A stretch of DNA of 64,000 nt. Origin: Chloroflexota bacterium (GTDB taxonomy: Bacteria; Chloroflexota; Anaerolineae; Promineifilales; Promineifilaceae). Each line of letters begins with the position of its first letter. Positions within the stretch are counted from its first letter, which is position 1. Both the position numbers and the translations under genes were made by a program. Below, in pieces: positions 11,212 through 29,067 of the stretch. The notes under the pieces are model-generated. The model ran no database searches and was not told the origin of the DNA. It saw nothing but the letters and a program-made list of their open reading frames with translations. The stretch spans positions 1 through 64,000 of the forward strand of contig JAHDEN010000007.1 in NCBI GenBank assembly GCA_020628815.1. The letters run 5' to 3'.

Positions 11212-14200
11212 TTATCTGCTAATGAATGAGAAGTAGGATTTATTGCCAAAGATGTCTGCAAACGAGGGGGTTGATGGCAACATTTCGGCCGGAGCCATGA
11301 CGCCAAAATAACCCAGTCTGTCCATCTGGAAGGTTATTGTTCGATTCTCCGTATCAAGCGTTATATCATCAACAACAGTTGGGTCTGCATTTATCCGTGC
11401 ATCGGGGACCGATTGAATCATAATCACCAAATCTGCTGGATCCATCACATCTTCGATGTAGCTGGGGTAAGGAACTGTAACGGTCAATGTTTGGTCTATC
11501 GACTTCTCCCAATGAGCTGACATGTTTGAATCAAACGCCATCACTTGATACGTTAACGCAACCGGCTGTAAGTCTCCATTTAACACAAAGAAATTGCCAG
11601 TCTCTAAGCCAACATGTCTGACAGGTACATCATCCGCCAGCAATCCGGCCGGGGCAACTACAGCTGTCCCATCTGACAGCTGGACAGTCACAGGCTGATC
11701 ATCATCCATCTCGGCCGACTCTGGGGGCAAATAATATTCACCTTCATTTAGTATCAAATCGATCTGGGTAGGTCCATCCACATCAATAGAACCTCCCATA
11801 TGCCAATGTTCATCTTCAGTGTATGCGTAAACATCTATAAACCAGCTGCCATCAACAATATCAACCGAAAAATCGCCAACAGCGTTTTCCCCATCCGATG
11901 TCAAATTAACCCCAAAATATTTATAAGACCCACCGGCAAGGTTCAGGCTAACAAATGCTTCCACACTTTCAGTTAAACCAGGCGCATATACTGAGCCAGA
12001 CAAAGGGGTTTCGGCTGCTCTAAAATTGAGCTCTAGCCCAGCTAGCGCCTCTCCAGGCTCAAGTGTGATTACAATCGGATCTGGTGGGAACATGTCATCA
12101 TCTCCGAAGGAATCATACGCCGTTAAAAGATATGAGCCATAAGGAACATTGGCCGAGAAATTTCCTGCCATATCAGTGTCGATGGTCAGATAAAACTCAG
12201 TCAGCTCATCCAAACCCTGAAGAACAAGATGCCCATATGGAGCAAAATCATTTGGTGGGTAATTTAAACTTCCAGAAATCGAGGCATCTGCAAATAATAG
12301 AGGCAAATCTAGCGTGACCGTGCTATTTTCAGTCACAAACAGGCTATTGGACGTACTATTTATCGGGTAATAATCTGGGTTGTTCGGCAGGGGGATCCAC
12401 CAATCAATAAACCACTCACCCGCTACAACAGGGAGATCAAAGCTAGAATCATCGGCCGTAATCGAGGTTCCGATCCCGCTACTTATACTATTTGAATACG
12501 CTCGAACTTCTCCGGCTACATTAGGAATCGTTTCACCGGTCCTAAAATCAACAACTTGCCCCGTAATCAAAGCATTTGGTTCTAAAGCTTTGATCTCAAC
12601 ATTCAATGTTGAATCTGGCGCAACTGTTATCGATATATTAGCTGGAAACATATATGGGGAGTCATATACGCCTAAATACAGTTCGTAGTCACCGGGTAAC
12701 ACAGGAATTTCAAAACGGCCGCCGCTAATATGAGACTCGCCATAATATGATGGTTCAGACTCTTTAACTACGGTTGCATATCCGTTGATAGTACTGAGCA
12801 GATCACCAGCTTGATTGACTAAAGAAGCTGAAATTCTGCTATTCAGCTCTTGCAAAACAAAGTTAACGCCATCGGCCGATTCACCTTCAGCAACGGTCGC
12901 TTGAACAGGGCCATCGTTATAATAAAATTCCGGCAGATGATAAATTTCAGCGTAAACTGTCCAGTTCCCAGCAATTGCCCTTAATTCATAATTACCATCA
13001 GCATCGGTGGTGGCAAATCGGTCACGATCTAACCCATCATTGTTATAAGCGTAAATATGAACATTAGGCACAGGGTTTCCAGATGAGGTAGTCACCGTCC
13101 CTCTAATTGATGCGTTCGGCGCCTGCAGCAAAACTTCTCCCAGATCCAACAGTTCGCCAGATTTTAATATGATTGTTTTTCCAATCAATGGGGCTAAACC
13201 TTCAGCATCTGGGTAGATCTGATAGACGTATTCCCCGGCCGGGGCCGCCAATTCAAACGGGCTTCCTTGTGGAAAATATCCATTATTTTCAAAATATGTA
13301 CTGTTAGAAAAAATTGAAACATAATATCCACCCGTTGCAATAGCCGGATCAGTTGAAGCCACAGATCCTCTAACAGCTGCGTCAAACCGGGCAACTTCAA
13401 ATGATATCTGCTTTTCTTCAGATGTTTCGTCTAAGGCAAATGAAACAAGGGTATAGGGTTCAATATTATGCCAATCACGAACCTCATAATTTATTGGGTA
13501 AAGCTCAACAATCCAATCTCCACCAACTAAGCTGAGTTCATAGCGTCCATTTTCGTCAGTGGTTGTACTCCGGGATAGCCCTCTTGATTGATGAGAAGCA
13601 ACAAGACGGCCGTCTGTTACGGGAATTCCATTTTGATCAACAACGTGCCCAGATACAACTTTTAATCTGTCTGGCCACTGGTTGTACTTTAATTCAATAG
13701 GCAGCTCATCAGTTGGGATTGTGATCTGCAACGGGTTTGGAGGCAACAGATCTGAACCATCGTAGTCACGATAATTTGAGACGACGATTTCATATTGGCC
13801 GTCCCGCAAATTGCCTATCTGCCATCGCCCTTGACTGTCAGAATAGGCATAACCTGAAACATAAGGTAACCCATCAATCGAGTAGATTCCTACGTCAGAA
13901 TCAGGGTATGGGTTTCCATCCGCATCAAGCACTGTGCCATAAATGTCTGGCCCAGCATATTCTATCGAGTGGACTATGGTCTCACCCTCGTCTTCTATCG
14001 TTACAGCTATGGGATCCGATTCAAAATGTTCGTTTTGATCAGGGCTAGGATATGCGCTTAGCGAATAGTCTCCAGCAGGGATACCCTGCATAAAATATCG
14101 GCCGGATACGGTCCGTGTCGATGCAAGATATGATCCAGTCCTACTCTTTAAAAAGACATATCCTTCCACCAACGAATCGCTACCCGGGGCAATCACATCA

Positions 14201-14769
14201 CCCGCTACTTGGGCAACAGAAACCCTAATATCTCCTAAATCAACAGATGATTGAAACAGATCAACATAGGGTGGTGCCGCAGCCATCAGATAGCTACCTT
14301 CAGGGGGAAGTAAGTGCAATACATACACCCCAGAATAGATCGAATCAAAACTGAACTCTCCCGAATTTGTATCAACAATCGCAGTTACAACCGGGGGACC
14401 ATAAACATTTTCTTCAAGTGGAGGCAAAGGAGCCAATTCTGCTAGATTTGGGGCGCTCGGCCGTTCCAGGTCTGATCCCAACAATGGCACGGGGGGTGGT
14501 GGTGGAATCGATGGGGTTGGAGTAGGAATATATGGAGGAATAGGATTTTCACTTGGATGAGGAGGGGCTTCGTAATCGATGTGGAACAATCCAACTTTCA
14601 TTCCTGCGGGCATCGTTATCCCGTCAGGCAAAACGAGCTTCCCACTAACTGTACCTTGCTGGCTAGCTTCCTCAGCTTGCACAGAACTCACGAGGTTGTA
14701 CCCAAACAAGGCTATTCCAAGTAAAAGCAGACTAATAAATGCGACCGTAAACAGCTTCTCTTTTTTCAT
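11212..14769 (-). CDS. Secreted protein of about ten carboxypeptidase-regulatory-like repeats
   Basis: The 1185-residue protein starts at MKKEKLFTVAF, after AAGGGAAAA. It has a Sec signal peptide (hydrophobic core LLLLGIALFGYNL, probable cleavage after VQA) and a proline-rich stretch near residue 110. About ten tandem prealbumin-like beta-sandwich repeats of about 90 residues follow, each opening with a G-x-V pattern and carrying a D-x-x-G-x-Y/F core (for example TDADGNYEL, TDENGRYEL). These belong to the CarboxypepD_reg/SpaA-like class common in surface adhesins. The C-terminal 170 residues form a different domain ending YFGVMAP. No sortase motif, S-layer domain or second membrane anchor is visible. 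Role is probably extracellular or cell-surface; the ligand is unknown. It has its own terminator and appears monocistronic. Confidence 0.85.
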   Translation of the reverse strand: MKKEKLFTVAFISLLLLGIALFGYNLVSSVQAEEASQQGTVSGKLVLPDGITMPAGMKVGLFHIDYEAPPHPSENPIPPYIPTPTPSIPPPPPVPLLGSDLERPSAPNLAELAPLPPLEENVYGPPVVTAIVDTNSGEFSFDSIYSGVYVLHLLPPEGSYLMAAAPPYVDLFQSSVDLGDIRVSVAQVAGDVIAPGSDSLVEGYVFLKSRTGSYLASTRTVSGRYFMQGIPAGDYSLSAYPSPDQNEHFESDPIAVTIEDEGETIVHSIEYAGPDIYGTVLDADGNPYPDSDVGIYSIDGLPYVSGYAYSDSQGRWQIGNLRDGQYEIVVSNYRDYDGSDLLPPNPLQITIPTDELPIELKYNQWPDRLKVVSGHVVDQNGIPVTDGRLVASHQSRGLSRSTTTDENGRYELSLVGGDWIVELYPINYEVRDWHNIEPYTLVSFALDETSEEKQISFEVARFDAAVRGSVASTDPAIATGGYYVSIFSNSTYFENNGYFPQGSPFELAAPAGEYVYQIYPDAEGLAPLIGKTIILKSGELLDLGEVLLQAPNASIRGTVTTSSGNPVPNVHIYAYNNDGLDRDRFATTDADGNYELRAIAGNWTVYAEIYHLPEFYYNDGPVQATVAEGESADGVNFVLQELNSRISASLVNQAGDLLSTINGYATVVKESEPSYYGESHISGGRFEIPVLPGDYELYLGVYDSPYMFPANISITVAPDSTLNVEIKALEPNALITGQVVDFRTGETIPNVAGEVRAYSNSISSGIGTSITADDSSFDLPVVAGEWFIDWWIPLPNNPDYYPINSTSNSLFVTENSTVTLDLPLLFADASISGSLNYPPNDFAPYGHLVLQGLDELTEFYLTIDTDMAGNFSANVPYGSYLLTAYDSFGDDDMFPPDPIVITLEPGEALAGLELNFRAAETPLSGSVYAPGLTESVEAFVSLNLAGGSYKYFGVNLTSDGENAVGDFSVDIVDGSWFIDVYAYTEDEHWHMGGSIDVDGPTQIDLILNEGEYYLPPESAEMDDDQPVTVQLSDGTAVVAPAGLLADDVPVRHVGLETGNFFVLNGDLQPVALTYQVMAFDSNMSAHWEKSIDQTLTVTVPYPSYIEDVMDPADLVIMIQSVPDARINADPTVVDDITLDTENRTITFQMDRLGYFGVMAPAEMLPSTPSFADIFGNKSYFSFISR

Positions 14770-14984
14770 TTTTATTTTCCCTTTTGTTGTAAAAGCCAAA
14801 TCAAAATATCTTCCTACCGGAAAACATATTTTATTATTTGGCAGCCACCTCAAATTTGCTTGTCTATTTCCCTACTGGTTCATATTTTTAAACATACGGA
14901 CCTGCTAATGAATAGAATAACGAGATCAAGCCGTAAATGGTTCCATATTGATATATTTTGGGCTAATTTGACAATCAGAGTCGG

Positions 14985-17900
14985 TTAAAGTGACTTTTGC
15001 AGCTCTTGTCCTGTCACACTTTCGGCAACTGCCATCACCTGCTTGGGAGGTCCCTGAGCAACAACATTCCCACCGGCCGCGCCACCCTCAGGTCCCATGT
15101 CGATAATCCAATCGGCCGTCTGCACAACGTCCAAATTATGCTCAATCACAATAATCGAATTGCCCGCATCCACCAGCCTATGCAGCACATCTAGCAGCAC
15201 CTGCACATCCGCAAAGTGCAGCCCCGTTGTCGGCTCATCAAGAATATAAATCGTCTGCCCCGTCGCTTTACGGCTCAGCTCCTTCGCCAGCTTAACCCGC
15301 TGCGCCTCCCCACCAGAAAGCGTGAGTGCGCTCTGCCCCAGCTTCAGATAATCAAGCCCCACGTCAAACAACATCTGCAACCCGTTTTTGATCTTTGGCT
15401 GAGCCTCAAAAAACGTCAACGCTTCAGCGATATCCATGTCGAGCACATCTGCAATATGTTTGTCTTTAAAGGTCACAGCCAGCGTGTCTCGATTGAACCG
15501 CTGCCCATTGCACTCACGACACGTTACCCACACATCTGCCAAAAAGTGCATTTCGACCCGTTTTTGCCCATGGCCCGAGCAGTTGGCACACCGGCCGTCG
15601 CTGTTGTTAAAGCTAAATCGGCCCGCTTTGTACCCACGCACCTTCGCCTCTGGCAAGCTCGCAAACAGCTTGCGAATCTCATCAAATAAACCGACATATG
15701 TTGCGGGATTAGAACGTGGGGTTCGGCCGATCGGATCTTGGGTGATGTTGATCGCCTTATCAAGTTGGTCCAACCCATCCAAGCTATGATGTGGCCCTGG
15801 GGCAGATTGGGCGTTCATCAGGTCACGGCCCAAAATCGGGGACAAGGTTTGCCCCACCAAACTGCTCTTACCACTCCCACTAACCCCGGTAATGCAGGTC
15901 AAAACCCCTAGGGGAAACTTGACTGTCAAATTTTTCAGGTTGTTCAAGCGCGCGTCTTTAAGGGTCAGCCAGCCGACAGGCTCTCGCAGTTTTTCGGCGT
16001 TAGACGTTTTGATTTTTAGATCACCGCGCAAATATCGGCCGGTTAAACTTTCAGGATGATGGGCCAGCGCCTCAGGCGGTCCGGCCGCAATCAGTTCACC
16101 CCCTAGCACACCGGCCCTTGGCCCCAAATCGATAATCCAATCTGACTTAGCCATCGTCTGCTGATCATGCTCCACAACAAGCACCGTATTCCCCATGTCG
16201 CGCAGTTCGGTTAGGGTTTCAATCAGCTTTGTATGATCCCGCACGTGCAGCCCGATAGATGGCTCATCGAGCACGTACAACACCCCAACCAGCCCACTGC
16301 TTAACTGACTGGCTAATCGAATCCGCTGTCCCTCCCCACCCGACAGCGTGGGGGCCGCACGATCTAAATTTAAATAGTGCAATCCAACGTTTAACATAAA
16401 ACGCAGCCGCTTCGACAGCTCAATCATGATCTCTTCAACAATCACGCTTTGCTCTTCGTCCAGCGTTTGTGGGATGGCTTGCACCCAATCGGCCGTCTCT
16501 CCCAGCGTCATCATATTGACTACAGGAAGTCTTTTGCCCGCGACCGTAACAAACCTCGCCTCAGGACACAGTCGCTCGCCATTGCAGCTGGTACACGGTA
16601 ATTGACTCATGAACTGAGCCAGCCAGCGTCGCCGCCCTTCCGATTTTGTTGTCCGAAACAACCGATTAATCTGTTTGATTAGCCCCTGTGCTGGTCGAGT
16701 CACTTCCCCCTGCATCCGATCTTCCGACCGACCCTCGCCCCAGATAAACTTAAAGGCCACATCTCCTGACCCATACACCAGCGCATGCCGAAAATCTTCG
16801 GGCAAATCTTCCCAAGGTTGTGAAATATCCGCCTTGTAATGCTCTGCAATCACCTTGATTTGGGTCAACGTCCACGATGATTTTTTCTTGCTCAACACCC
16901 CATAATACGAAGATGCCCCATCTAGCAGAGACAAATCCGGCCGATTAAAAATCAAGCCAGGATCTACCTGAAGCTGAGCACCCAACCCGTTGCAGTCTTG
17001 GCACATCCCACTGGGGGAGTTGGGGCTAAACAAGCGTGGCGAAAGCTCTTGAAAACTAAGCCCACACGAACCGCAGGCATGGTGCTGTGAAAATTTCTGC
17101 TCACTTCCGTCCTCCAGCAGCAGCGTCAGAGACCCGTTGCCTGCCAGCAGTGTGGTTTCAACACTGTCGGTTAAACGGGTGGCAAAAGATCGGTCTGTCG
17201 CCTCATCTGCTGGCAGGGTGAGCCGATCGATCACCAATTCGACATCATGCGCTTTTGTTTTTGCCAGCGGCTTTTGTTCTCCCAAGCGAACCATTTCCCC
17301 GTTGATTCTAGCCCGCACATATCCATCTTTTTGAGCTTTTTCCAGCAGGTTGGCATGGGTCCCTTTTCTAGCTTGGGCAACAGGGGCCAGCAGCTGAATC
17401 TTGCTCCCACCCGGCTGTTCCAAAATCTGGTCAACAATTTGGCTTGGTGACTGCGGCGTCACATCCCGGCCGCATTGCGGGCAGTGTGCGGTCCCCACGC
17501 GGGCAAACAGCAGGCGCAAATGGTCAGCCACTTCAGTGATGGTTCCCACCGTCGAGCGAGGATTTTTGCTCACCGTTTTTTGCTCAATCGCCACGGCCGG
17601 GCTCAAGCCGGAAATATGATCAACCTTCGGCTTTTCCATCTGCCCCAAAAAGCGGCGGGCGTAGCTCGACAACGACTCAACATAGCGCCGTTGCCCTTCA
17701 GCAAACAGCGTATCAAACGCCAAAGACGATTTTCCACTGCCGCTAACCCCGGTCACCACCACCAGCTTATTGCGCGGAATCGTCACATCTATATTTTTCA
17801 GATTGTGTTGTCTGGCTCCCACAATCTCAATATCTGCAGTTGCTTGGAATTGATTATTAAAAGTTGGTTGTTCTTTATTAATTATTTCAGAGCGGGAACT

Positions 17901-18851
17901 CTCCGTTGACACTTGATGATTGACCATTGTCAATTGACTATTAATCAGCTCATCTGGATCCCCAATTTCAACCTCTCCAAGCCCAAACGACGCCAAGCGA
18001 GTCTGTGTCACACGCGCATCAGGCAAGGTTTGGAACATCGCCTGAACCTCATCGAACCGGCTATCAACGGCCGTCGTCAGCTCCGCAATCTCGTCAAGCC
18101 GAGCATAATCGGCCGCTGTCATTTCTTTCTGCTTTTTCGTCCCCAACGGCCCCCAAATGTCCCACGGCAACAGCTCCACTTTGTTTAACGCCATCAAATC
18201 TGCAAGCAAATTACCCTTGATAAATGGCAAGCCGTTCAGGACGCGCGAAAAGCCAAACAAGCGAGAATCCATCTCCTTTGCCCGGCACAAGCGCCACGCT
18301 TCACCGGCCGTGTAAAAATCTGTCCCATGCACCATATCGTGGACGTCGTGGCTCATCTTCATCGCCAAGTATTGCTCATCGTCAATTTGCGGGTCAAGCA
18401 ATATCCAACGGTTTCCATTCCAATATTCGGCCACCCAATGATCATCGTTCCAATTTTGCTCCGGCCGAAAATAGGTCGCAAACCCAACGCGCAGGCGGGC
18501 CGGAATCCCTTTTTGGCGACAAAGAGCCACAAAAACAGTCGCGAAAGTTCGGCAGTTGCCCACCACACGGTCGGCCGGTTGGCGCGGCTCCAAAATCGAC
18601 CGATCATCTATAGAGCAGATCCGATCAAATACCCGTTCAACAGACCGCAGAGTCAAATAATCTTCCCGCTGAATTTTAGTTAGTTGGATGTCATATACGC
18701 TCCCGGTTGAGTTGTGTAACACCAACCCTTGGGTGACCTTGGCCAAGGTCACAGGATCTGCTGGGCACGTGTCAATTAAGTCTGCAAAATTTTTTGGATT
18801 TGTGATAGCCCCATGTTCAGTGTAGTAGGCCAAAACGCTTTGATCGGTCAA
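14985..18851 (-). CDS. uvrA: Fusion: transglutaminase-like domain plus UvrA excinuclease ATPase
   Basis: One open frame encodes an N-terminal transglutaminase-like cysteine-protease fold (about residues 60-200 with Cys103 in GNCRTFA, His141 in DDHWVAEYW and Asp156 in LLDPQ as the likely triad). A complete UvrA of about 945 residues follows from [14 protein letters not shown] near 344. The UvrA part has Walker [10 protein letters not shown] (371-379 of the ORF), two LSGGE-QR signatures, zinc-binding cysteine groups and both ATPase halves, so it should act as the damage sensor of nucleotide excision repair. The linker (about 305-338) is encoded by a 98-bp heptad repeat. The start at TTG 18851, 8 nt after AAAAGGAG, is preferred to GTG 18860, which overlaps that site. 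An internal ATG in the linker could also yield UvrA alone. Confidence 0.93.
17850..17947. repeat. Heptad array inside the transglutaminase-UvrA coding sequence
   Basis: Fourteen consecutive 7-bp units, all in one phase, mostly begin with TT; six in a row fit TTGACNN/TTGATNN/TTAATNN. This is the same type of repeat as those found between genes elsewhere in the window, but here it is translated as the interdomain linker. Confidence 0.8.
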
Positions 18852-19094
18852 CAGAAACACTCCTTTTCAGCTTGAGCTTCGATCTCATAATGGTATCGGG
18901 AATAGAAGGATTGATGCAACCATCCTCCCATGCAAAACTCCAAATTTGACTTTTTCAAATCAATCCCCATAATAAAAAGCAACTACCAACAGGAAAGTGT
19001 TATGACAGATTGTTAGCAAATAATTGATCACCCCGCCTTCGCCCGAAGGCCCATCAACTTATCGGTTTTCCTCATCCCTATTTGGAGGATCGCC

Positions 19095-21646: not shown

Positions 21647-21680
21647 ATAAAAAAGCGGTGCTGAGTTAACAACACCGCTT
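21647..21680 (-). terminator. Intrinsic terminator of the carbonic anhydrase gene
   Basis: AAGCGGTG pairs with CACCGCTT across a short loop, with a TTTTTT run on the minus strand, about 40 bp after the stop of the multi-domain carbonic anhydrase gene. Confidence 0.9.
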
Positions 21681-21717
21681 CTAATCTAAGGGTTAGGGCC
21701 GATTAGCCTTGCGCACT

Positions 21718-24309
21718 TTATGGTTGATACTGTTTATCAAACACACATGCTAAGGCCAAGTTGCCGTCGTCGTCTGAGTGAACCATACGGAAGAACTCTT
21801 CAGGGTAGATTGAACCACCATCTAAAGCTTCGTTAGGTGTTAGGAATTGGAATTGAACAAGTGAGAATAGTTCTCCATCAATTTCAAGACCTTCCCCTTT
21901 GCCGTAATCGACGCGGAATGTCTCTTCGTTATTTACGATAGCAACGGTTGAGCTTCCGTAGTTAAACGAAATTGATTCAAGGTCATTTAACGTGATCACC
22001 TTCATATCAACAATCGGCTGGCTGATACCAGAATTACATGCAGCATGTTCTGCAGAAAGTCCAGTCCAATCGATAACCTCTTGGCTACCAGCTGGTACAG
22101 CAGCCATAGCGTCCGCACTGTCGGCCGCATCTTCCGCTTGCTCAATCACAATAAAGTCACGCTCGTTCATCGCTTGAACAGGTCGGAAGTTATTGTTGTA
22201 AATAGCGGTGAACTGAGCGATTTGGTCTGCTGATAGTTCAACTGTTTCGCTCATGAGATGCCATTTCACACCTTCTGAACATGGTGGAGTCGTCAATGAG
22301 CCATCAAAGCGGTAGTAAGTTTGCACTGCTGGCAACATATCGGCCGCATTAATCGTGACGCCATCAACAAGCATCGCGTCGGATTTCATGAATGGCATGT
22401 TGTCTAAAAACGCAGCGTATGCTTCGTTCTCAGCACCTTCTTCAAGCATGACACCGATTACGGCCAAACCACCGTCAGCATTTGCATGAACAAAGTGGAT
22501 TTCAACCGGTGTTTGTACACCGTCGAAAGTATTTTCACTGGCTGCATGCAAGTGGAATTGAAGCAAGTCGTACACTTCACCATCAATGATGACGCTGCTA
22601 CCAGCATCATAGTTGGCTTGGATCGTGTGACCGTTGTTCAAAATGTTCAGCGCCGACTCGCCATAAGTGATCTCAAGCGTTGCCGCATTTGGTACGGTTC
22701 CGGCCGGAATGTTAATCGGTGACTGCTCGATACCTGCGCTACAAGCGGCATATTTAGCATCTAAAATACCCCAATTTGCAGGAGCACCTTCACCTTCATA
22801 ACCCCAAGCTGCTTTTTCTGCTTCGCCGCCGTCTTGGGCAGCGGCATCATCGCCAAGAACGATAAAGTCGCGTTCGTTCATAGCCTGTACAGGTCGGAAG
22901 TTGTTGTTGTAAATAGCGGTGAACTGAGCGATTTGATCGGCTGATAGTTCAACAGTCTCACTCATCAAATGCCATTTCACACCTTCTGAACAAGGTGGTG
23001 TCGTTAGTGACCCATCAAAGCGATAGTAAGTTTGCTCTGCGGGCAACATATCGAGCGCGTTAATCATCATCCCTTCAACCGTCATCACATCAGATTTTTC
23101 GGCCGGCATGTTGTTTAAGAACGCCGCATATGCTTCATTTTCAGCACCTTCTTCCAGCATGACACCGATTACGGCCAAGCCGCCATCAGTATTTGCATGA
23201 ACAAAGTGGATTTCAAGTGGCGTCTGAATACCTTCAAACGTATTCTCGCTGGCTGCATGTAAGTGGAACTGAAGCAAGTCATAAACTTGGCCATCAATTA
23301 ACACGCTGCTGCCTGCATCATAATTAGCCTGAATGGTGTGGCCGTTATTAAATATGTTGAGGGCCGATTCGTTGTAATCAAACATCAAGTTTGCAGGATT
23401 GGTTGGTGCGCCGGCCGGAATGTTAATCGGAGATTGCTCCATGCCTGCACTACATGCCGCATATTTATTAGACAATGTACCCCAGTTCACAGCGGCAGTT
23501 TCACCTTCATACCCCCACTCAACTTTTTCTTCGCTGGCAGCCATTTCTTGAACCGCAATAAAATCACGCGCGTTCATCGCTTGAATCGGCCGGAAGTTGT
23601 TGTTGTAAATGGTTGTAAATTGACCGATCTGCTCAGCCGACATTTCAATCGTATTGTTCAAAACATGCCATTTCACACCTTCAGAACATGGTGGAGTTGT
23701 CAACGATCCATCAAAGCGATGATACGTTTTTTCACTAGGCATCAGATCCATCGCATTCAATACGATACGATCAAATTCCCAGCTTGCACCCGCATCTTCT
23801 GGCATATTGTCAAAGATCTCAGCATATGCTTCGTTCGCACTTCCTTCCTCGACCATAACACCGATAACGGCTAGGCCGCCAGATTCATTTGCATGGACAA
23901 AGTGAACTTCTAGTGGGGTCTGTACGCCAGCAAGTGTGTTTTCACTCGCCGCATGGAAATGAAATTGAAGCAAGTTATATGCTTCCCCATCGATCATCAC
24001 ACTGCTTCCTTCGTCATAATTGACTTGGATCGTGTGACCATTATTTTGAATATCAAGAATTGATTCGCCGTAGGCAAACTCTAGATTTGCATCATTTACA
24101 AAGGCATCTGCAGGAATGTTGATTGGTGATTGCTCTAGACCTGCACTACAAGCTAGATAAGCATCATCAAGGCTGCCCCAATTAACAGCTGCAGTCTCAC
24201 CTTCATACCCCCATTCAGTCCCCTTTTCGTCTTGGGCACTATTGGAATTGCAAGCGGCTAAGAACAACAATAGCGTCATTGCTGTCAAAAAATAAAGAAA
24301 TTTTTTCAC
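21718..24309 (-). CDS. Lipoprotein with three alpha-carbonic anhydrase domains and a degenerate fourth
   Basis: The 863-residue protein has a lipoprotein signal (lipobox LAAC, Cys20), so it is anchored outside the cytoplasmic membrane. Three alpha-type carbonic anhydrase domains follow at about 33-252, 265-486 and 502-722. Each keeps the three zinc histidines (117/119/136, 349/351/368, 586/588/605), the ASEN glutamate and the TTPPCSEG threonine loop. Each also has a cysteine near both ends for the usual disulfide. They should interconvert CO2 and bicarbonate. A fourth unit (743-860) retains the fold signature but has QFQFL and EEFFRM in place of the zinc histidines and stops before the TTPPC half. 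Domains 2 and 3 are nearly identical, a recent duplication. GTG start after GGAGAG; own terminator. Confidence 0.95.
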   Translation of the reverse strand: MKKFLYFLTAMTLLLFLAACNSNSAQDEKGTEWGYEGETAAVNWGSLDDAYLACSAGLEQSPINIPADAFVNDANLEFAYGESILDIQNNGHTIQVNYDEGSSVMIDGEAYNLLQFHFHAASENTLAGVQTPLEVHFVHANESGGLAVIGVMVEEGSANEAYAEIFDNMPEDAGASWEFDRIVLNAMDLMPSEKTYHRFDGSLTTPPCSEGVKWHVLNNTIEMSAEQIGQFTTIYNNNFRPIQAMNARDFIAVQEMAASEEKVEWGYEGETAAVNWGTLSNKYAACSAGMEQSPINIPAGAPTNPANLMFDYNESALNIFNNGHTIQANYDAGSSVLIDGQVYDLLQFHLHAASENTFEGIQTPLEIHFVHANTDGGLAVIGVMLEEGAENEAYAAFLNNMPAEKSDVMTVEGMMINALDMLPAEQTYYRFDGSLTTPPCSEGVKWHLMSETVELSADQIAQFTAIYNNNFRPVQAMNERDFIVLGDDAAAQDGGEAEKAAWGYEGEGAPANWGILDAKYAACSAGIEQSPINIPAGTVPNAATLEITYGESALNILNNGHTIQANYDAGSSVIIDGEVYDLLQFHLHAASENTFDGVQTPVEIHFVHANADGGLAVIGVMLEEGAENEAYAAFLDNMPFMKSDAMLVDGVTINAADMLPAVQTYYRFDGSLTTPPCSEGVKWHLMSETVELSADQIAQFTAIYNNNFRPVQAMNERDFIVIEQAEDAADSADAMAAVPAGSQEVIDWTGLSAEHAACNSGISQPIVDMKVITLNDLESISFNYGSSTVAIVNNEETFRVDYGKGEGLEIDGELFSLVQFQFLTPNEALDGGSIYPEEFFRMVHSDDDGNLALACVFDKQYQP

Positions 24310-24762
24310 ACTATCTCTCCGTTTCTAATATTAATAAATTTGTCAATATGCATAGGGTAACTAGCCCGGCCAAAATCTATTGGCAGACATACAAAGTTAG
24401 CCCAAGCTGATTGCTGTACTCAACTTGAAAATTAGCTGAAAGCAAAAATGGATAAAGTAGACTTTGAACTCAGTTTTTAATCCTAAAATGCAGGCAATAA
24501 GACCGCAGTTCGAGGGTGAAATAAAATCAAGAAATTTTTTTTTACTCTAATTAATGTTCAAAATTGTACTGTAGTACTAGAAAATTTTTCTTGCATTCTA
24601 ACTCTTTGCAAATATTGGACACTTGAGCCAATACCAGAGGTGGCTATCAAATTTTTAAGGCTTCCCTCAGTTCAAAGTGTCAAAAAAGCAGGTAATATGG
24701 ACAAAACATATACAGAATGACTGCGCAGACTATTGAGAATCAAATGAAATTAGGTTGAGAAG
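24310..24762. other. 453-bp AT-rich gene-free gap
   Basis: This gap between the carbonic anhydrase start and the thiQ stop must hold the carbonic anhydrase promoter. It is AT-rich with poly-T tracts and a small dyad (GTACT-GT-AGTAC near 24570). No gene, RNA or repeat was recognised, and CGGCCG is absent. Confidence 0.5.
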
Positions 24763-25803
24763 CTAGCCCTGAAGCTCTACAAAGTGGCTTGGGTTAAGGT
24801 ATATCGGAATAACCTGACCGGCCTCAAATGTCCGGCCCATTAGCCCGTTTTCTGCATAGGGGTCAAGAGAGAATTCTAAAATGTGCTCCCCAACTTGGCA
24901 GACAAGAAGGGCAAATCGGCCGCGAAATGAGTAGCTAAGCACAGTCACATCAATCGGCCTCAGCCCATCCTGTTTATTTATAGCTCCAGCATAGGGTGGG
25001 ATAAGAACGGCAAACCCAGATTTCAGCTCAGCTTGTAACAGCTGGCTTAACCCATCGCTTGCTTCCAGCCACAAGCCACTCGCAATCACATTACTCAATC
25101 CTAAAAAGTTGGCCACAAAGCGATTGATCGGCCGGATATAAATTTCCTGCGGTGAATTAATTTGCTCTATTTTGCCCAGATTCATCACCGCAACACGGTC
25201 CGCAATCCCAAACGCCTCAGACTGATCGTGCGTTACGTACAGCGCGGTGACACCTACCTTTTTGAGGATGGCTCGCAACTCGTCTAACAGCCGCTCCCGG
25301 AGCAAACGATCCAGTGAGCCGAGCGGCTCGTCAAGCAGCAGAACACCCGGCCGGGTCGCTAACGATCTGGCCAAGGCCACACGCTGCTGCTGCCCGCCTG
25401 AAAGCTGATCAATTTTCCGATCTTTTAGCCCGACCATATCGACCAGCTCAAGCATTTCAGCCACACGCTCGGTGATCAAAGGGGCTGGCTCTTTCGCCAT
25501 ACGCAATCCATAGCTCACATTTTGAGCCACTGTCATATGGGGGAAAAGCGCATAGCTCTGAAACATCATGCCGATACCGCGCTGGTACGTGGGCACATCG
25601 ACTAGGTCTTGCCCATCGAGCAAAATCTGCCCGCCGTCGGCCGATTCAAGCCCTGCAACCAGACGCAAAAGTGTCGTTTTGCCACAGCCAGATGGACCCA
25701 GTAAGCAGACGATTTCACCACGCTCCAGTGACAGTGAAACCCCATCCACCGCAATGGTTGAGCCAAATGATTTTTGAATGTTACTGATTGCTAAATACGA
25801 CAT
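24763..25803 (-). CDS. thiQ: Thiamine ABC transporter, ATP-binding subunit
   Basis: This is a 346-residue ABC ATPase of the CUT1/ferric-thiamine importer group. It has Walker A GPSGCGKTT (36-44), Q-loop MMFQSYALFPHMT, signature LSGGQQQR, Walker B LLLDEPLGS and the switch histidine in VTHDQSE. A C-terminal TOBE-like domain of about 100 residues makes it longer than enterobacterial ThiQ. It is the last gene of the thiB-thiP-thiQ operon behind a TPP riboswitch, which is the main reason to assign thiamine or thiamine phosphates as cargo. Heptad repeats fill the gap from thiP. By sequence alone it could equally serve iron or spermidine. Confidence 0.88.
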   Translation of the reverse strand: MSYLAISNIQKSFGSTIAVDGVSLSLERGEIVCLLGPSGCGKTTLLRLVAGLESADGGQILLDGQDLVDVPTYQRGIGMMFQSYALFPHMTVAQNVSYGLRMAKEPAPLITERVAEMLELVDMVGLKDRKIDQLSGGQQQRVALARSLATRPGVLLLDEPLGSLDRLLRERLLDELRAILKKVGVTALYVTHDQSEAFGIADRVAVMNLGKIEQINSPQEIYIRPINRFVANFLGLSNVIASGLWLEASDGLSQLLQAELKSGFAVLIPPYAGAINKQDGLRPIDVTVLSYSFRGRFALLVCQVGEHILEFSLDPYAENGLMGRTFEAGQVIPIYLNPSHFVELQG

Positions 25804-25812
25804 ACTTGTTCC

Positions 25813-25870
25813 GTGGTGCGTGGCGCGTGGCGCGTGGCGCGTAAGATATTTTCATACATCACGATTTACG
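25813..25870. repeat. Heptad array between thiP and thiQ
   Basis: One GTGGTGC unit, three perfect GTGGCGC units and one GTAAGAT unit follow in register. A short arm reading as the inverse complement (ATCACGA, TTTACGT) closes the element against the thiP stop. Same class as the other heptad arrays. Confidence 0.75.
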
Positions 25871-27526
25871 TCAAAACTCACCTTGATCTAAATTATTATC
25901 ACCGATGCGTAATCGCTCAATTAGGACAAAACCGACTGAGCAAACGAGCATCAACAGCGTGCTCATCGCTAAAGCTTGGCCAAAATTAACCGCTCCCGGC
26001 CGGCCTAAAAAGCGGAAAATCGCCGTTGGCATCGTCGGGTTATCCGGCCGGGCTATAAAAACAGTTGCGCCAAACTCACCCATGCTGATGGTAAATGCAA
26101 AAACGGCGGCAACAAGCAACACCCGGCTGAGCAGGGGCCAATCGATTGTGAGCCACACCCGCTGCGGATCAGCCCCCAGCGTACCGGCCGCCTCGCGCAC
26201 GGCCGGGTCAATCGCCCTTAGCGCGGGTAAAACGGTACGAATCACAAATGGGATGGCAACCAATGAGTGGGCCAGCGGAATCAAAATCAGGGATTGGCGT
26301 AAATTTAATGGGGGTTCATCCAAAGCGATGATATAGCCGAATCCCAAGGTAACGGCCGAAGTCGCCAGCGGCAACATAAAAATCGGGTCGAGCCAGCGGT
26401 TGCGGTCCGCCACGAGATAGGCGCAGATCAGCCCGATCACCAACGAAAAGACGATGGCCATCCCCGCAAACATAAGCGAGTTGCCAACCGCCTGGATTGG
26501 TGGCACAAAAAAGGCTGACCCACGTTCGTTGACAAACAAGCGTCCATAATAGGTAAACGGATTGCCACCAGTCCACGACAATGAGCGCAACACAAGGGCC
26601 AGCAAGGGGGTTGCCAGCAAGACAAACATGACGGTCAAATTTCCACCCACCAGCCAACGGTCCAAGGGTGTCGTAACCGGCCGGGCCGCAGCCGTTCGGC
26701 TTGATGGCTGGGTCGCAATCCTTGACTGGGTGCGGGTATAAACGGCCATCAGTGCAAAGGTAAAAACAATCTGAAACAGAGACAGTGCAGCCGCCACAGG
26801 CAGATCAAAAATATTGACCGCCTGACGATAAATTTCAACTTCGAGCGTGGCAAATCGTGGGCCCCCCAACAGTAAAACAACCCCAAAACTGGTAAAGGTA
26901 AAAATAAAGACAAGGACAGCCGCAGCCATAATCGCTGGGCGCAAAAGAGGCAGTGTTATCGTCCAAAAGCGCTGCTGGCGCGATGCCCCCAAGGTCTCGG
27001 CCGCCTGCGATAAATCTTGATTGATCCGCTCCCAATAGGCGCTCACAATGCGCAAAGCCACGCTGTAGTTGTAAAAAACATGGGCGAGCAAAATCATCCA
27101 AATCGTTTGGTGCAAATCAATCGGTGGCTCTTCTAATCTAAAAACAGTTTGCAAGATGCCGTTGAGCAATCCGCGCGGCCCGATCAAAGCCGAGAAGGCG
27201 TTGGCAACCACAACGGTTGGTAGCACGAATGGCAAGGTGCTGATTGTGCGCAATGTCTGCTTGTAGCGAAAGTCGTACGTTGCAAACACATAGGCGGCCG
27301 GGAGCGCAAGTAGCAGGGTCAAAACGGTGCTGACAATCGCTTGCCACAGGGTAAACCAGAGTGTAGACAGGTAGTAGCGATCCCGAAAAATCTCTGTAAC
27401 GGCATCTAGCTCAAAGCGCCCTTCTGGTGCAAAGCTTAGTTGGAGTATGCTGGCAAGGGGGTAGAAGTAAAATAGGCCAAAGAAAATGAGGGGGATTAAG
27501 GGGAGTAGGCGGGCGTATTTTCGCAA
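25871..27526 (-). CDS. thiP: Thiamine ABC transporter, fused permease
   Basis: The 551-residue membrane protein contains two homologous permease halves, as in ThiP and FbpB-type importers. Each half has about six transmembrane helices and an EAA coupling loop: AAETLGASRQQRF near residue 190 and EAAGTLGADPQRV near residue 450. It forms the channel for the periplasmic ThiB and is energised by ThiQ. It lies between thiB and thiQ on the same strand, with heptad arrays on both sides and a TPP riboswitch at the operon head. The N-terminus (MRKYARLLPLIPLI) is a normal first helix. Confidence 0.9.
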   Translation of the reverse strand: MRKYARLLPLIPLIFFGLFYFYPLASILQLSFAPEGRFELDAVTEIFRDRYYLSTLWFTLWQAIVSTVLTLLLALPAAYVFATYDFRYKQTLRTISTLPFVLPTVVVANAFSALIGPRGLLNGILQTVFRLEEPPIDLHQTIWMILLAHVFYNYSVALRIVSAYWERINQDLSQAAETLGASRQQRFWTITLPLLRPAIMAAAVLVFIFTFTSFGVVLLLGGPRFATLEVEIYRQAVNIFDLPVAAALSLFQIVFTFALMAVYTRTQSRIATQPSSRTAAARPVTTPLDRWLVGGNLTVMFVLLATPLLALVLRSLSWTGGNPFTYYGRLFVNERGSAFFVPPIQAVGNSLMFAGMAIVFSLVIGLICAYLVADRNRWLDPIFMLPLATSAVTLGFGYIIALDEPPLNLRQSLILIPLAHSLVAIPFVIRTVLPALRAIDPAVREAAGTLGADPQRVWLTIDWPLLSRVLLVAAVFAFTISMGEFGATVFIARPDNPTMPTAIFRFLGRPGAVNFGQALAMSTLLMLVCSVGFVLIERLRIGDNNLDQGEF

Positions 27527-27543
27527 TTAGAAACTTCAAACGA

Positions 27544-27586
27544 GTTGCGTATTGCGTATGAGATCTCACACGCAATACGCAACACG
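27544..27586. repeat. Heptad array between thiB and thiP
   Basis: Two TTGCGTA units and their inverse arm form a perfect 14-bp inverted repeat (GTTGCGTATTGCGT and its complement) with 12 bp between. All six units share one 7-bp phase across the centre. It could form a hairpin in the operon mRNA. Confidence 0.8.
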
Positions 27587-27592
27587 GAGAGA

Positions 27593-28639
27593 CTATCTCA
27601 AAACAACATCAGTCCAATCACTGATCCACGTTTCACGGTTGGCCGCAATTGTTTCTGGATTAAGCGTTGCTGGTGAGTCTGGGACGGTTGCATATGCCAC
27701 AAATGACTCAGGCAGCTCGGCCGTGGTGTTGCTCGGGAAGACAAACATGTTCAATGGAATATCTTCTTGGAACGTTTTGCCCAACATGAAGTCGATCAGC
27801 TGTTGCGCCGCTGCTTCATGCTCGGTTCCAGCCAAAATACCGACAAATTCAATTTGGCGGAAGCAGCTGGATGGGGCTGTCACACTGGCTGTCACTGCGC
27901 CGTCTACAGGTGGATCAGCAAACAAAACTTCGGCCGGTGGACTGCTGGCGTAGCTTACCACAATCGGCCGGTCCCCACCGTAGCGGGTGAACGCCTCGTA
28001 ATACGCTTCACTCCATCCGTTTTCAACACGTACGTCGTTGTCTACAAGCTGTGCCCAGTAGTCAAGATATCCCTCTTCGCCATAAGCATCAACCGTAGCC
28101 ATTAAAAAGGCCAGGCCGGGGCTGCTGGTAGATGGGTTTTCAACTACCGTCAAGCCCGCATAATCCGGGTCAGCTAAGTCGGCCAAACCGCTGGGTGCGT
28201 CTAAATCACTCGCCGCAAACCACTCCAGATCATAGTTCAGACAAACGTCTCCAAAATCTACCGGCAATGCACGATTTTCAGGATCAAGCTTGAGCGAGTC
28301 ATCGATATCGGCTAAGGCAGGTGAATCGTACGCCACCAAAATGTCATTCTCAAGCGCCCGGCTCAAAAAGGTGTTGTCGATTCCAAATACAACATCACCT
28401 AACGGATTGTTTTTCGACAAAATGTTTTGGTTCAACATTTCACCCGCATCACCCAATGGGACAAGTTCAACCGTGTGCCCGGTTTGTTCTGTAAACGCCT
28501 CAAGGGTCCCTTCGCTCACAAAAAAGCTGTCGTGTGATACAAGCTTGAGTGTGACCGGCTCGATCTCACCAGAGCCACATGCGGTAAGTGCAATCAAGGC
28601 TCCGAGTCCTAAAGTAATTGTGGTTAAAATTTTCTTCAT
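27593..28639 (-). CDS. thiB: Thiamine ABC transporter, substrate-binding lipoprotein
   Basis: This is a 348-residue extracytoplasmic solute-binding protein of the ThiB/TbpA family. A lipoprotein signal ends in LTAC (Cys21). The body shows the two-lobed pattern of family 1 binding proteins, with LVSHDSFFVS, GDVVFGIDNTFLSRA and VDFGDVCLNYD matching thiamine-binding relatives and the tryptophan/tyrosine residues (NGWSEAYYEAF) expected to stack on thiamine. It is the first gene behind a TPP riboswitch and terminator, with a clear GGAGGAAA site before the ATG, so expression should fall when cellular TPP is high. Confidence 0.95.
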   Translation of the reverse strand: MKKILTTITLGLGALIALTACGSGEIEPVTLKLVSHDSFFVSEGTLEAFTEQTGHTVELVPLGDAGEMLNQNILSKNNPLGDVVFGIDNTFLSRALENDILVAYDSPALADIDDSLKLDPENRALPVDFGDVCLNYDLEWFAASDLDAPSGLADLADPDYAGLTVVENPSTSSPGLAFLMATVDAYGEEGYLDYWAQLVDNDVRVENGWSEAYYEAFTRYGGDRPIVVSYASSPPAEVLFADPPVDGAVTASVTAPSSCFRQIEFVGILAGTEHEAAAQQLIDFMLGKTFQEDIPLNMFVFPSNTTAELPESFVAYATVPDSPATLNPETIAANRETWISDWTDVVLR

Positions 28640-28726: not shown

Positions 28727-28766
28727 GTCAATTTGAGGATAGATGATTATCTATTCTCAAATTGAC
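28727..28766 (-). promoter_or_regulatory. Long hairpin between TPP aptamer and terminator
   Basis: GTCAATTTGAG and CTCAAATTGAC plus an inner ATAGAT/ATCTAT pair form a stem of about 18 bp with a GATT-type loop, directly between aptamer and terminator. Simple attenuators need only an anti-terminator here, so this very stable extra hairpin may shape folding or mRNA stability. Confidence 0.7.
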
Positions 28767-28770
28767 ACGT

Positions 28771-28860
28771 CCATATTTCCTACGCTGGCATTATCCAGAT
28801 CAGGTCATTAGGGTCGATGGTCTACCATCCTCTCAGTTTCTTTCGGAACTCCCCTAATGG
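28771..28860 (-). ncRNA. TPP riboswitch aptamer (THI element)
   Basis: The minus strand carries the conserved THI-box elements in order: CTGAGAGGATGG, GACCC, and the hallmark ACCTGATCTGGATAATGCC followed by AGCGTAGGAA. Closing arms near 28860 and 28771 form P1. It binds thiamine pyrophosphate and, with the downstream terminator, controls the thiB-thiP-thiQ transport operon. Confidence 0.97.
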
Positions 28861-29067
28861 AGTACAAGTATTTTGTTTTGAAACTACACGGCCGATTATA
28901 CCAACTTTTTCAGAATCAGCTTTTTTTTGATGCAAATGTAATCTTAGTCAGATTTGTGTGTGTGCGTGTGTGTAAAAAAGTATTTATGGGGGCATCATTT
29001 CTTCTAGGCATCTGTTCCAACTATTGTAGTCATGCAACAGAAAACCGAATAAAAAGGCTGGAATTAT

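Follow-up and report, generated by a model that had tools for sequence, protein, structure and literature searches.

Gene organization and domain architecture

The window, a 64,000-nucleotide stretch of Chloroflexota DNA, carries on its reverse strand a gene for a putative lipoprotein composed of three α-carbonic anhydrase (α-CA) units, which we label D1, D2, and D3, followed by a degenerate half unit, D4 (Table 1). The GTG start codon has the sequence GGAGAG just 5' and is backed by an ATG codon at the equivalent position of an ortholog in a second species (described below). The signal peptide, lipobox, and cysteine characteristic of bacterial lipoproteins are all present, read by eye as MKKFLYFLTAMTLLLFLAAC-N in the window and as LLLAAC-S in the ortholog. 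A different hairpin with a T run occupies the equivalent site after the stop codon of the ortholog, and the predicted terminator in the window marks the end of the gene as genuine. The upstream intergenic region is likely to contain a separate promoter belonging to the gene itself; no consensus sigma-70 site was found on the coding strand of this region. The metagenome-assembled genome (MAG) comprises 332 contigs, and there is no gap within the window.

Table 1. Features of the carbonic anhydrase lipoprotein locus (window coordinates)
Feature	Position	Strand	Basis or description
Lipoprotein gene, three α-CA units and a degenerate half unit	21718..24309	-	863 aa, GTG start
Predicted signal peptide, lipobox LFLAAC, lipidated Cys20 (residues 1-30)	24220..24309	-	sequence; LLLAAC in ortholog
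D1, predicted catalytic α-CA unit (residues 31-254)	23548..24219	-	PF00194 match, catalytic residues
D2, predicted catalytic α-CA unit (residues 263-486)	22852..23523	-	PF00194 match, catalytic residues
D3, predicted catalytic α-CA unit (residues 500-723)	22141..22812	-	PF00194 match, catalytic residues
Acidic, Ala-rich linker D3-D4 (residues 724-745)	22075..22140	-	sequence
D4, degenerate N-terminal half of an α-CA unit without zinc ligands (residues 746-863); Cys758, Cys855	21721..22074	-	alignment, hhalign
Putative intrinsic terminator hairpin	21651..21682	-	13 pairs, directly 3' of stop codon
Upstream intergenic region, 453 nt	24310..24762	-	conserved blocks in ortholog

The Pfam family PF00194 matches the protein in three stretches with an E-value of 2.8e-128 for the whole chain. 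The separate matches score 146, 144, and 143 bits against a cut-off of 27, and each covers nearly the whole domain. The family was found nowhere else in the genome, the assembly of which is 77% complete. Each of the three units contains the motif NNGHT with the proton-shuttle residue His64, the zinc ligands His94, His96, and His119 in the motifs QFHxH and ExHFVH, Glu106 in the motif SEN, and Thr199 together with the second cysteine in the motif GSLTTPPC. Every unit has exactly two cysteine residues. The original prediction of a lipoprotein with three catalytic carbonic anhydrase units is therefore borne out, with the coordinates originally given for the frame, by the lipobox at Cys20, the three Pfam stretches, and the intact catalytic residues. 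The nearest solved structures are bacterial α-CAs, with 6eki as the top match (E 1.3e-58).

The units are joined by short acidic linkers and share 67-84% protein identity. D1 is the outlier, at 67-68% identity to D2 and D3, and the most divergent segment is formed by unit residues 130-162, where D1 has only 31-38% amino acid identity to the other two. D2 and D3 had been described as nearly identical at the DNA level. We found 79% DNA identity and 84% protein identity between them, with a dS of 1.16, and the description is therefore wrong. Ungapped blocks of the two units are 75-83% identical in DNA. In 20-codon windows the identity ranges from 62 to 95% with a peak in the C-terminal third, and values of 88-95% are confined to short stretches of the C-terminal half.

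The degenerate half unit D4

D4 gave no match when searched alone against Pfam. Profile alignment with hhalign showed it to be homologous to the N-terminal half of a catalytic unit (probability 99.4%, E 1.9e-21, 112 columns), and hence to the α-CA fold. The zinc ligands are replaced (H94 by Q, H96 by L, and H119 by R), the proton-shuttle histidine is a glutamate, and everything past the strand LAVIGV is missing, including the TTPPC motif. D4 thus has neither the zinc histidine triad nor a complete domain. It is in frame with D1-D3 and contains no stop codon, so the earlier reading of a fourth unit that had lost its three zinc histidines and its C-terminal half while staying in frame was correct. 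A frameshift or early stop as the cause of the missing half was ruled out, the terminator following the stop codon in both species.

D4 keeps the first cysteine of the unit (Cys758) and has an extra one, Cys855, within a strand equivalent (LALACV). The same arrangement is found in the second species, so that in both the lost cysteine partner is offset by a new cysteine. Cys758 and Cys855 are possibly a rearranged pair that locks D4 with a disulfide bond.

Modeling of the fourth domain had been proposed as a check. AlphaFold models were obtained but were of low confidence, with a pLDDT of 51.5 for D4 alone and of about 25-53 for the D4 part of a D3-D4 construct. A PDB fold search returned noise only, with no fold match, and neither the models nor this search entered the interpretation as evidence.

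An ortholog in a congeneric species

Searches at every level from genus through family and class to phylum identified an ortholog. It belongs to Chloroflexi bacterium MAG-54 RZ_8302 (G002; contig JAHDGV010000079.1), one of four further species in the genus. The order of its parts is lipobox, D1, D2, a gap of 100 N, the rest of D3, and D4 with the ending FDKQYQP. The gap hides the D2/D3 junction, and the ortholog therefore has at least three catalytic units in addition to D4. The flanking genes are those of the window, with an ABC-transporter ATPase on one side and a PEP-mutase-family gene on the other. PF00194 was absent from the three other species of the genus searched (G001, G003, and G004). 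A contig scan with the single CA protein as query found nothing. The same scan with the two-species alignment found the ortholog alone; it relies on short patterns and is unfit as a general survey.

In G004 the ATPase and PEP-mutase-family genes are also close together. Between them lie an acetyltransferase-like gene and a gene for a 1193-aa surface protein, with no CA gene. The 1193-aa protein is similar by eye to the product of the window open reading frame at 11212-14853. That frame (reverse strand) and the one at 725-4306 of L051 (reverse strand) each encode a large surface protein with carboxypeptidase-regulatory-like repeats.

Distribution of multi-unit α-CAs

α-CA genes were detected in 4 of 52 genomes drawn from the family, 24 of 400 from the phylum, and 31 of 396 from the class. 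These draws overlap and together represent about 750 distinct Chloroflexota genomes, which set the scope of the survey. Apart from the two species, none of the sampled genomes had more than one PF00194 unit in a single open frame. The other α-CA genes were all single-unit, in agreement with the original claim that it is unusual for an anchored polypeptide to carry three catalytic units. The domain count in relatives, which had been suggested as a check, showed that the nearest relative possessing an α-CA has the same multi-unit gene rather than a single-domain one. In members of the class (L085, L073, L087, and L090) a single α-CA unit is fused to other exported parts, which by eye include a 5'-nucleotidase-like part with LysM, NHL-type repeats, LysM, and a Thr/Glu-rich surface protein. 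Among the matches listed for viral contigs and plasmids there was no multi-unit α-CA, all being single-unit by length. Single-unit α-CA genes, several of them nearly alike, occur on IMG/VR contigs (L055-L061); these may belong to prophages or represent host DNA that was mis-called.

The units D1-D3 share the zinc histidine triad, the shuttle histidine, the GSLTTPPC motif, and the cysteine pair with the single-domain bacterial α-CAs of known structure (6eki, 6im0, 1kop, and 4g7a). Those enzymes differ in having one unit per chain, with neither a lipid-anchored tandem nor a dead half unit. Loss of zinc ligands is familiar from the CA-related proteins and receptor protein tyrosine phosphatase (RPTP) ectodomains of animals, which retain the α-CA fold for binding or structural purposes. 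However, the dead domains of those proteins are full-length, whereas D4 is half a domain.

Chains with more than one CA unit are known from other organisms. Two-unit α-CAs are found in Dunaliella salina (dCAI) and giant clam (DDCA) (PMC9570166, PMC5879104). Like the window protein they have internally duplicated α-CA units and are surface or extracellular proteins, but they are eukaryotic, have two units, and have no dead extra unit. The diatom ζ-CA CDCA1 has three active repeats, and the full protein is about three times as active as a single repeat (PMC4413181). It resembles the window protein, whose unit activities are predicted, in having three repeats in one chain, but it belongs to another fold and class, its repeats are 80-82% identical, and it lacks a dead fourth unit. 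In carboxysomal CsoSCA (Sawaya et al. 2006), outlined in PMC5879104, homologous CA domains are fused and one of them is without an active site. By that account it differs from the window protein in being β-CA related and carboxysomal, with one active and one dead domain. No bacterial protein of the present type was described in the open papers searched, a limited library. What is new here is that three predicted active bacterial α units are combined, on a putative lipid anchor, with a dead half unit that has been maintained.

Origin of the units and selection on D4

In a tree that included single-unit CAs from the phylum, all six catalytic units of the two species fell into one clade (support 100/99). 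D1 groups with D1 across the species (100/98), and D2 and D3 of the window pair with each other (97/97). The single clade and the D1 pairing indicate that the duplication occurred inside the lineage and that D1 had diverged from the other units by the time the two species parted. The pairing of D2 with D3 indicates re-duplication or sequence exchange within the species. By these relationships the layout running from D1 to D4 predates the species split, which runs counter to the idea of an ongoing change in copy number; the DNA identity and dS of D2 and D3 likewise give no sign of a very recent change in the window. In a tree of half units, D4 sits on a long stem of 2.22 changes per column.

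Protein identity between the two species is 71% for D4 and 74% for D1, and 77% and 71% for the available parts of D2 and D3, respectively. The D4 sequences are of equal length with zero indels, and both end in FDKQYQP. An estimate from these two sequences gave pS 0.78, which is saturated, pN 0.18, and pN/pS 0.23 (Fisher p 2e-22). The corresponding pN/pS for D1 is 0.22. When the number of substitutions in D4 was placed at random 5000 times, protein identity averaged 43% and never exceeded 53%, and 98% of the placements introduced a stop codon. With a pN/pS close to that of D1, saturated synonymous sites, and no indel or stop, D4 is under purifying selection and is not a decaying remnant. It is maintained as strongly as an active unit. 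The part of the original prediction that had D4 retained for a reason therefore stands; the structural role suggested for it is plausible.

Proposed function and alternative explanations

We consider it probable that internal duplication gave rise to an anchored, extracytoplasmic triple α-CA in which D4 serves as a cap with a structural or binding function. The lipid anchor would tether the protein to the cytoplasmic membrane on its outward side, where three independent zinc sites in series would each interconvert CO2 and bicarbonate. Serial units on one anchor would multiply the activity per anchored molecule. The active units would have arisen by internal duplication inside the genus, with later exchange or re-duplication of D2 and D3. 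D4 may cap the chain, dock on the neighboring unit, self-associate, or bind a surface partner. The genome has a separate β-CA gene (PF00484) elsewhere, which is consistent with an additional role of the α-CA lipoprotein outside the cell.

An origin of the tandem units in MAG assembly, by creation or collapse of copies, might be suspected from the 332-contig assembly and from the break of the ortholog assembly exactly within the repeats. However, the units of the window are too unlike in protein sequence to be artificial copies, the window is gapless, and the same order is found in an independent MAG, so that an artifact is extremely improbable. It is also very unlikely that D4 is what remains of a fourth catalytic unit in functionless decay, kept in frame only by the chance position of the stop codon downstream of it. 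The absence of every catalytic residue and of one half of the fold, the C-terminal position at which truncation is cheap, and the long stem branch would fit such a remnant. They are opposed by the equal length and common ending of D4 in the two species, the identity preserved despite saturated synonymous sites, a pN/pS equal to that of D1, and the new cysteine that in both species matches the lost partner.

Other possibilities concern what the parts of a functional protein do. With half of the CA sheet missing, D4 would have an exposed edge in need of a partner, and this, together with its strong conservation, allows for an oligomerization module, in which D4 pairs either with its counterpart in a second molecule or with a D3 edge strand to form a surface CA array. 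The D4 and D3-D4 models were too poor to support this arrangement, which we regard as conceivable but rather doubtful. Specialization of the units is a similarly tentative proposal, under which D1 would work differently from D2 and D3, perhaps preferring another pH, salt level, or anion, and the chain would be more than a set of three equal enzymes. The proposal draws on the low identity of D1 to the others, its independent descent from a time before the two species parted, and the divergence of unit residues 130-162, but the catalytic residues of all three units are identical. A broader scheme, in which the protein is a surface CO2-handling scaffold, is unlikely. In it D4 would be a newly evolved half-CA, a minimal domain of a new type derived from CA, which has its own disulfide and organizes the enzyme at the cell surface, for instance by associating with itself or attaching to a transporter or a mineral. 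Under the favored reading, an anchored triple α-CA with a D4 cap, the chain would be a bacterial example of a triple α-CA and a natural experiment on stringing CA units together and retaining a dead one, in which two orthologs show that duplication preceded the separation of the species and that the dead half is constrained like an active unit. Tandem CA proteins are possibly useful for CO2 capture.

Neighboring genes

The genes upstream of the lipoprotein gene (24763-28639) encode an ABC importer. A TPP riboswitch (70 bits) lies upstream of them at 28759-28865 on the reverse strand, which suggests that the importer carries thiamine or a thiamine precursor. Assignment of a function to the lipoprotein from its neighbors was rejected, since an importer behind a TPP riboswitch and a PEP-mutase-family enzyme offer no link to inorganic carbon. 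Elsewhere in the window, a 1291-aa frame at 14985-18860 (reverse strand) encodes a UvrA-like excinuclease subunit (UvrA_inter, UvrA_DNA-bind, and ABC domains) with an N-terminal transglutaminase-core domain in the same frame. In G002 a long frame of 1286 aa also contains the N-terminal part of this protein, whereas in G003 and G027 the frames that contain it are shorter.
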